A stretch of DNA of 64,000 bases from Dietzia alimentaria 72 (GTDB lineage: Bacteria; Actinomycetota; Actinomycetes; Mycobacteriales; Mycobacteriaceae): positions 62,001 to 126,000 of the forward strand of contig NZ_AGFF01000005.1 of assembly GCF_000226215.1 (NCBI RefSeq), read 5' to 3'. The notes under the pieces are model-generated. The model saw nothing but the letters and a program-made list of their open reading frames with translations. It was not told where the DNA came from and made no database searches. The position numbers and the translations under genes were made by a program. Of this stretch, positions 12,086-55,465 are shown piece by piece; within the stretch, counting starts at the first letter, position 1, and the number at the start of each line of letters is the position of its first letter.

Positions 12086-12100
12086 ACATCCGCTCCTGTG

Positions 12101-12142
12101 GATGGCGTCCCGCCACCGCCTCGGCGCACGCGGGACGCCATG
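12101..12142. repeat. 42-nt palindromic element, copy 1
   Basis: Arms ATGGCGTCCCGC (12102-12113) and GCGGGACGCCAT (12130-12141) pair perfectly over 12 bp. An inner CGCC-TC-GGCG hairpin sits in the loop. Length, CCACCGCC core and layout match copies at 27867 and 55310. Confidence 0.75.
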
Positions 12143-12158
12143 CGCGGAGGCCGGCGTG

Positions 12159-12177
12159 CAGGCGCGGGTGCGGATGC
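12159..12177 (-). repeat. Inverted copy of GCATCCGCACCCGCGCCTG
   Basis: An exact 19-nt match, on the minus strand, to the two direct copies at 55210-55230 and 55262-55282. Confidence 0.75.
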
Positions 12178-27781: not shown

Positions 27782-27866
27782 GCGGTCTCGACGGAACGCG
27801 TTCCGGAGTGGTCAGTGGCCGTCCGGCAGTGAGTCGGCCCGCCTCGCTCAGAATCCGCCCCCCGCG

Positions 27867-27908
27867 ATGAACTCCGGCCACCGCCGGGGCGCACGCGCGA
27901 GTTCATCG
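27867..27908. repeat. 42-nt palindromic element, copy 2
   Basis: Arms CGATGAACTC (27866-27875) and GAGTTCATCG (27900-27909) pair perfectly over 10 bp, with an inner CGCC-GG-GGCG hairpin. Same length and CCACCGCC core as copies at 12101 and 55310. It lies in the convergent gap between the HAD and amidase genes. Confidence 0.75.
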
Positions 27909-27935
27909 AGAGGGGCGTCTGTGTTCTTGGGGTTG

Positions 27936-28019
27936 CGGACCGGTCCCCACCACTTCCCCGGTGTGCCCGCCGCCCCATGGGTGGGGGAGGCGGGCACACC
28001 TGGTGGGATCCGGTCCGCG
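27936..28019. terminator. Long 84-nt two-part hairpin between HAD and amidase genes
   Basis: Inner stem: GGTGTGCCCGCC (27961-27972) with GGCGGGCACACC (27990-28001), perfect over 12 bp. Outer stem: 27936-27953 with 28002-28019, 18 nt with two mismatches, joined by a 7-nt one-sided bulge. Likely bidirectional terminator. Confidence 0.65.
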
Positions 28020-55209: not shown

Positions 55210-55230
55210 GGGCATCCGCACCCGCGCCTG
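55210..55230 (+). repeat. Direct repeat copy a (19-nt core GCATCCGCACCCGCGCCTG)
   Basis: GG plus the 19-nt core, 21 nt identical to copy b, starting 52 nt before it. Both are preceded by CCGCC and one variable base. Confidence 0.8.
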
Positions 55231-55261: not shown

Positions 55262-55282
55262 GGGCATCCGCACCCGCGCCTG
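55262..55282 (+). repeat. Direct repeat copy b
   Basis: The same 21 nt as copy a. The 19-nt core also occurs inverted at 12159-12177. Confidence 0.8.
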
Positions 55283-55309
55283 TACGGCTGACGCATAGGC
55301 GCTACCGTC

Positions 55310-55351
55310 CATGAACTCTCGCCACCGCCGAAGCGGCCGCCCGAGTTCATG
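55310..55351. repeat. 42-nt palindromic element, copy 3
   Basis: CATGAACTC (55310-55318) pairs with GAGTTCATG (55343-55351). The stem extends outward by ACCGT/ACGGT (55304-55308 and 55353-55357) with one mismatch. The CCACCGCC core and length match copies 1 and 2. Confidence 0.75.
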
Positions 55352-55465
55352 AACGGTGGCGGATCCGTTGAGCGGCGACCCGCGACCCGTGGCGAGCGAC
55401 TTGCGGCCCGTCAGCTCGAGGCCCGGCGGGGGGCGGCACCAGCGTGAGCCGCGCCCCTGCCGGTG

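Follow-up and report, generated by a model that had tools for sequence, protein, structure and literature searches.

The window (the whole stretch analysed here, 64,000 nt in length) lies on contig G000:C35 of the Dietzia alimentaria 72 genome, which we call G000 (3.35 Mb, 39 contigs). Pfam identifies in it genes of a kind known from mycolate-bearing bacteria, coding for a polyketide synthase, a carboxyltransferase, and an arabinosyltransferase; the names pks13, accD4, and accD5 are used for such genes in this analysis. The window contains three palindromic elements. Element 1 is flanked by genes that Pfam assigns to a methionine sulfoxide reductase (+) and a cold-shock protein (-). Element 2 separates a HAD hydrolase gene (+) from an LGFP/amidase gene (-), and element 3 separates the accD4-like carboxyltransferase gene (+) from the arabinosyltransferase gene (-). 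The elements, their arms (R and R' units, placed by pair counts in alignment A6, see below), and a 19-nt companion motif A (GCATCCGCACCCGCGCCTG) are as follows, with scores from model R2:

12087..12156, + strand: element 1, GGCGTC dialect, 70-nt hairpin (60.9 bits; folding z -4.37 / -2.98)
12087..12113, + strand: element 1, R unit (left arm)
12130..12156, - strand: element 1, R' unit (right arm, inverted)
12159..12177, - strand: companion motif A beside element 1, offset 25, exact GCATCCGCACCCGCGCCTG match
27852..27921, + strand: element 2, GAACTC dialect (68.4 bits)
27852..27878, + strand: element 2, R unit (left arm)
27895..27921, - strand: element 2, R' unit
55212..55230, + strand: companion motif A, outer copy near element 3, exact GCATCCGCACCCGCGCCTG match
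55264..55282, + strand: companion motif A near element 3, at the usual offset (36), exact GCATCCGCACCCGCGCCTG match
55296..55365, + strand: element 3, GAACTC dialect (62.9 bits)
55296..55322, + strand: element 3, R unit (left arm)
55339..55365, - strand: element 3, R' unit

Inspection of all three sites showed palindromes with a common length and plan, as the first-pass annotation had described; two of its coordinates were right, and the middle 42-nt element starts at 27866, where GATGAACTC begins, rather than at 27867. The 42-nt element that it recognised stands as a core but not as the full unit, being the centre of a 70-nt hairpin that extends 14 nt past either end. The plan is R (27 nt), 16 nt, and R' (27 nt, inverted). 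In A6, a gapless alignment of 59 copies by 70 nt from seven genomes, these two inverted unit copies form one hairpin of 30 pairs, with 86.9 per cent of cells paired. The outer stem is paired in most A6 copies, and the outward continuation of pairing was also seen in the flanks of further copies. The stretch CCACCGCC, earlier called invariant, varies among the 59.

The likeness among the three window elements exceeds chance. Allowing up to 3 mismatches, the ATGAACTCNCGCCNCCGCC pattern matches the window 5 times, each time within one of the three elements, against 0.54 expected, and 0 of 100 shuffles reach 5. Scores with R2 run from 60.9 to 68.4 bits (E 4e-12 to 6e-14), the three elements being themselves among the 59 copies from which that model was built. 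When stretches of 60-68 nt were folded, the three elements and loci L001 and L002 beat their shuffles on both strands (z -2.98 to -9.94); L003 folded no better than its shuffles (z -0.70 and 0.16 on the two strands). A loose pattern for the elements was discarded because chance matches swamped it (64 places matched, versus 35 for its reversal).

The HAD/amidase gap holds a second, separate hairpin at 27935-28018. A pattern based on CACTTCCCCGG finds it in 17 of the 21 genomes for which this locus was fetched; 16 copies were aligned, and the diverged G012 copy retains the motif with different stem letters. It matches no Rfam family at the gathering score and is a candidate terminator or structured RNA.

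A covariance-model search, which the first-pass annotation had proposed, found further copies in both the window's own and related genomes. With model R1, G000 has at least 32 distinct loci at E <= 1e-3, from which 4 extra loci at E 0.29-0.94 were excluded. Over 41 genomes at E <= 0.01, R1 matched 20, namely 18 of 23 Dietzia and 2 of 18 others (one weak match each), and R2, built from seven genomes, matched 8 of 12 low- or zero-copy genomes, one of them just, at E 0.009. A coarse scan of 298 genomes of the order (297 besides our own, 16 candidates scored in each) matched 4: our own genome with at least 16 matches and three others with one weak match each. The family is thus nearly restricted to Dietzia, among whose species copy number ranges from none found to 32. 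The loci listed per genome (G000 32, six relatives 11-31, six others 1-8) are lower bounds, with one 74.9-bit R2 copy in G015 and one 44-bit copy in G013 known to have escaped. Scanning genome contigs with CGATGAACTC-gap-GAGTTCATCG returned 8 scattered matches of the sort expected by chance, none in Dietzia, in a collection that may omit near relatives.

Matches in a plasmid collection came only from Dietzia lutea records. Two of these (L335 and L336; NZ_CP015451 and NZ_CP015452) have 17 and 15 places, and enrichment on plasmids was considered and rejected: their annotation is mostly one gene block of about 6.3 kb repeated, like a chromosomal stretch of G015 that carries an element of the same score. 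Both records are probably assembly concatemers rather than real plasmids.

Placement was determined with a home-made GC3-based gene caller, which is crude. Among 147 copies in seven genomes, 71 lie between convergent genes, 50 between tandem genes, 11 between divergent genes, 10 within an ORF (a placement that is the caller's alone), and 5 at contig edges. Confinement to convergent gaps, as first described, is true of the window, where elements occupy 3 of the 4 convergent gaps of at least 62 nt and 0 of 16 others, but the family as a whole is not so confined. Since a circular genome has as many convergent as divergent gaps, the ratio of 71 to 11 represents a real bias (P = 7e-12), and it remains after orthologues are collapsed to 86 sites (39 versus 8, P = 6e-6). 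The family prefers gene 3' ends.

Many copies are accompanied by half units or by a companion motif. Companion motif A has 3 exact matches in the window against 0.13 expected, and with up to 3 mismatches it lies within 80 nt of 20 of the 32 G000 copies, exactly 36 nt off in 14. In G015, 24 of 30 copies have a direct half unit 54-58 nt upstream (exactly 55 in 19), compared with 6 matches at 194,734 control positions. A half unit lies within 90 nt of 14 of 27 copies in G011 and 15 of 25 in G008; the GGCGTC-type half-unit pattern was found beside 1 of 32 copies in G000 and 0 of 22 in G009. About four tandem units of about 20 nt follow one G011 copy. R units occur singly and in tandem as well as paired. 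Two loci, L261 and L293, are hybrids in which the left arm is of the GGCGTC type and the right of the GAGTTC type, as though one arm had been swapped.

The arms themselves come in lineage dialects. Most G000 copies have GAACTC as their left core arm, most copies in G008, G011, and G015 have GGCGTC, and G003 and G005 are mixed. Both core arms are exactly ATGAACTC/GAGTTCAT in 15 of 32 G000 copies and exactly ATGGCGTC/GACGCCAT in 21 of 26 copies in G011, 19 of 24 in G008, and 24 of 29 in G015. The first-pass annotation had taken covariation of the arms as a sign that structure is selected. The data bear this out only in part: the covariation is there (score 0.322 versus 0.139 shuffled, 59 copies), but much of it tracks these dialects. 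The compensating change that it noted between the 12101 element and the other two is a comparison of different sites. The GGCGTC arms at 12101 are probably an inherited variant, because G008, G011, and G015 share GGCGTC arms at that site. These three genomes also have a GGCGTC-dialect element in the element 3 gap.

We dealt out right arms among copies of the same genome in 1000 shuffles. Core-stem pairing after dealing was 0.88 in G000 (observed 0.93, reached by 0 shuffles), 0.95 in G015 (observed 0.98, reached by 28), and 0.77 in G009 (observed 0.76). For the variable segment, the excess was clear in G000 (0.68 versus 0.52, 0/1000) and G011 (0.64 versus 0.51, 2/1000), weaker in G008 (0.62 versus 0.49, 13/1000), and little or none in G015 (0.53 versus 0.47, 98/1000) and G009 (0.47 versus 0.46, 362/1000). 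Most covariation is therefore between lineages, and inside one genome it is weak or absent. Because dealing within a genome keeps most pairing, the two arms are for the most part copies of a single lineage-specific unit, and paired changes are partly built in, since both arms copy that unit.

Some sites can be followed across species. Of the 22 genomes in which the accD5-like site was examined, 13 have an element there, 265-343 nt downstream of the gene. The element covaries across these 13 species, with 9 pairs changed on both sides (score 0.144 versus 0.084; pairing 83.1 versus 79.4 per cent; 12 distinct rows). When both flanks were required to match, 16 sites were common to different clades. 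A comparison of copies (44 pairs, 43 full-length) gave an identity of 0.659 for inter-clade orthologues, 0.686 for own-genome paralogues, and 0.626 for random inter-clade pairs. Descent and re-insertion are hard to separate because the orthologues are barely more alike than the random pairs. Of the loci fetched for the 27867 gap, only those of G000 and G016 contain a clear element by R1. This presence and absence, like the missing upstream element of an AbiEi-like gene in G011, comes without precise ends; no empty site with exact ends and a target duplication was seen, and no movement was observed. A presumed empty site in G015 proved to be occupied.

The AbiEi-like gene stands out in the spacing of the elements. 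Five element pairs in a set of 150 copies are less than 4 kb apart. Four enclose a gene for a 318-aa protein, and the fifth, in G009, is 75 nt apart and leaves no room for a gene. An extra pair in G005 encloses the gene as well, and so all five gene-length pairs of clear elements (G000, G009, G008, G015, G005) enclose this same AbiEi-like gene. An R2 re-search at E <= 0.05 of 140 loci and three Tsukamurella stretches found no further pair of clear elements. It did find pairs with weak members: in G015 (L334), a 74.9-bit element with others of 26.1 and 24.2 bits around an SDR oxidoreductase gene (by a matching plasmid record), and in G011 (L187), 60.7 with 21.4 bits. In G003 the downstream element of the AbiEi-like gene is present and the upstream side meets the contig end after a partial element; in G011 the downstream element is accompanied upstream by degenerate half units only. 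The gene has two chromosomal contexts, with a BrkB-family neighbour in G000 and G009 and an enolase-like neighbour in G003, G005, and G015; the same neighbour sequence puts the G008 gene in the enolase-like context.

The G000 protein passes Pfam cut-offs for AbiEi_4 (26.9 bits, cut-off 25) and AbiEi_1 (22.3 bits, cut-off 22.2). The G015 protein passes AbiEi_4 alone and the G008 protein neither; the best PADLOC AbiEi E-values are 1e-18 (G000) and 2e-20 (G015). The C-terminal part matches no Pfam family, and the protein's profile has no PDB match. In alignment A7, the G000 protein is 65-71 per cent identical to four others, compared with 90-93 per cent for the unlinked AccD4-like protein of the same four species. 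The N-terminal region is nearly invariant across dialects, and this conservation disfavours a simple change of specificity. No AbiEii (DUF1814) toxin gene was found among 7 neighbour proteins at 5 loci (by Pfam BrkB, flavin reductase, and enolase-like proteins); the upstream neighbour in G000 falls past the contig end.

An AbiEi-like gene adjoins an element in all seven genomes with at least 11 listed loci (inspected: G000 32/32, G003 11/11, G005 12/12, G008 25/29, G009 22/24, G011 27/30, G015 30/31). In six genomes with 1-8 listed loci (G002 5, G010 1, G014 2, G016 4, G017 8, G022 1), every listed locus was inspected and the gene adjoins none; nor does it adjoin any of the inspected part of the loci in G001, G006, G007, G019, and G020. 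The association of high copy number with the gene is suggestive, in related species, some with incomplete assemblies, and for a gene that was sought beside elements only.

Distant homologues occur singly in three Tsukamurella tyrosinosolvens records (L357, L358, L359; NZ_LR134451, NZ_LR134465, NZ_LR134463), each without an annotated toxin partner beside it. The records are labelled as plasmids, yet they carry the housekeeping genes tatB, hadA, rpmG, and pdxS and are probably chromosome contigs. R2 had no match at E <= 0.05 in the three stretches; L359 has one 27-nt inverted repeat.

Taken as a whole, these dispersed inverted repeats are probably a REP/REPIN-like family, which we regard as their best explanation. 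One of the identities first suggested for them, a REP-like element, fits well: they are mostly intergenic, multicopy, inverted pairs of a short unit, restricted to one genus and divided into lineage subfamilies. Classical REPs are served by a RAYT, and the same annotation had suggested looking for one. Y1_Tnp (PF01797, E <= 0.01) was found in 0 of 23 Dietzia genomes, 8 of them less than 90 per cent complete, and in 6 of 14 control genomes, so we rejected a RAYT as partner.

A REP/REPIN-like family of this kind would spread or turn over by the copying of R units into tolerated 3'-end gaps, the R unit being a putative binding site of a trans-acting protein. The hairpin would probably be kept by paired-site binding or by arm-to-arm correction rather than by an RNA function common to all copies. 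The best candidate for that protein is the 318-aa AbiEi-like protein, which might act as RAYT does for classical REPs, the bracketed gene then being the counterpart of a REPtron. According to PMC7319586, the targets of Streptococcus agalactiae AbiEi are two 23-bp inverted repeats with a 3-bp gap, and Rv2827c recognises two such pairs, with gaps of 13 bp. R is a likely predicted site for the AbiEi-like protein because 27-nt units with a 16-nt gap, found upstream of the gene too, fit this layout. Counting against the partnership, the link comes down to two chromosomal contexts and the gene was found by looking beside elements. We offer it tentatively, and slightly less firmly than before because the weaker G015 pair surrounds another gene.

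A fuller version of the proposal, which we consider doubtful and have marked down a little for the same reason, would be a new kind of REPtron. Here an AbiEi-type protein would replace RAYT, recognise R, and drive both spread and lineage turnover, with dialect and protein changing together; its C-terminal domain is possibly nuclease-like, on our reading of its motifs.

Alternatively, the elements could be regulatory or nucleoid sites of the AbiEi-like protein, selected in place like operators and not mobile. AbiEi-type proteins do bind paired inverted repeats, according to PMC7319586, the 16 sites shared between clades and the frequent accD5-site element would be expected of fixed sites, and lineage-wide dialects would suit a changing trans factor. 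However, copies are scarcest between divergent genes (11/147), where operators belong, the 27867 gap has a clear element in only two genomes, and a copy number that goes from none found to 32 within one genus speaks against host sites. We consider this reading unlikely. A MITE moved by an unrelated transposase (DDE or other) that is not yet recognised is more improbable again. A palindromic, genus-restricted, patchy family with per-lineage subfamilies and no Y1 transposase in 23 genomes could be one, and our transposase search covered the Y1_Tnp family alone; but a non-systematic look recognised no target duplication, and single and tandem R units are unlike a MITE with fixed ends. Least probable is a family of bidirectional terminators or 3' UTR structured RNAs, for although the hairpins are strong on both strands (5 of 6 copies folded), sit at 3' ends, and show compensating changes at the accD5 site, a run of at least 4 T follows within 12 nt in only 2 of 149 copies (at least 3 T in 7 of 149; terminators without T runs remain compatible), the window has no Rfam family at the gathering score, a shared unit sequence and half units are needless for a terminator, and the 27867 gap already has its separate conserved hairpin.

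The REP/REPIN-like family has both likenesses to and differences from known systems. According to PMC3116915 and PMC2817692, REPINs and GTAG REPs share with it an inverted short-unit hairpin, an intergenic location, and common compensating changes, and they too include singlets and clusters beside doublets. By analogy with REPtrons, the Dietzia family also has a gene flanked by its repeats, though that gene is AbiEi-like and the 23 genomes are without Y1_Tnp, where REPINs have a RAYT. The GTAG tag at the base of those repeats is absent here: of 298 arm flanks, each taken as the 8 nt beyond an arm of the 62-mer, 3 contain GTAG and 1 contains CGTC. REP copy number is usually over 100 per genome according to PMC2817692, and the tens of copies in Dietzia fall below that. 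CGTC REPs, said in PMC3733652 to be without a dedicated transposase, resemble the Dietzia family in their preference for convergent and unidirectional gaps, the placement described there for REPs being similar to ours. They differ in that their stems are 8-9 bp, their loops are 4-5 nt, and a CGTC tag is left unpaired, compared with a 70-nt hairpin without a tag. A word search of that paper found no mention of Dietzia, Rhodococcus, corynebacter-, or actinomycet-. The AbiE type IV toxin-antitoxin operators, as set out in PMC7319586, have an AbiEi-type DNA-binding domain and inverted-repeat pairs upstream of the gene, as in Dietzia, where by contrast no AbiEii was found among the Pfam-tested neighbours, the repeats are dispersed over the genome, and the protein has an extra C-terminal region without a Pfam match.

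As far as our literature searches show, the palindrome family is undescribed. Searches on Dietzia palindromic, intergenic, interspersed, or REP repeats returned nothing relevant, and no paper was found that joins AbiEi with DUF559, AbiEi with REPs, or actinobacteria with RAYT and REPs. PMC3733652 leaves open the origin and persistence of transposase-less REP-like repeats such as CGTC REPs. Because the Dietzia family has lineage dialects, a single candidate partner, and sites that can be traced from species to species, it makes binding, co-evolution, and spread directly testable, and it may point to something that AbiEi-like genes do when they stand alone, outside toxin-antitoxin pairs.

The accD4 gap carries a different repeat-like sequence in several other species (L123 in G013, L126 in G017, L131 in G002, L136 in G005, and L140 in G004). 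Its motifs, like TTGACCTATGCG and GGTCCATTC, lie near AGCGCA, and the sequence is perhaps a second palindromic family.
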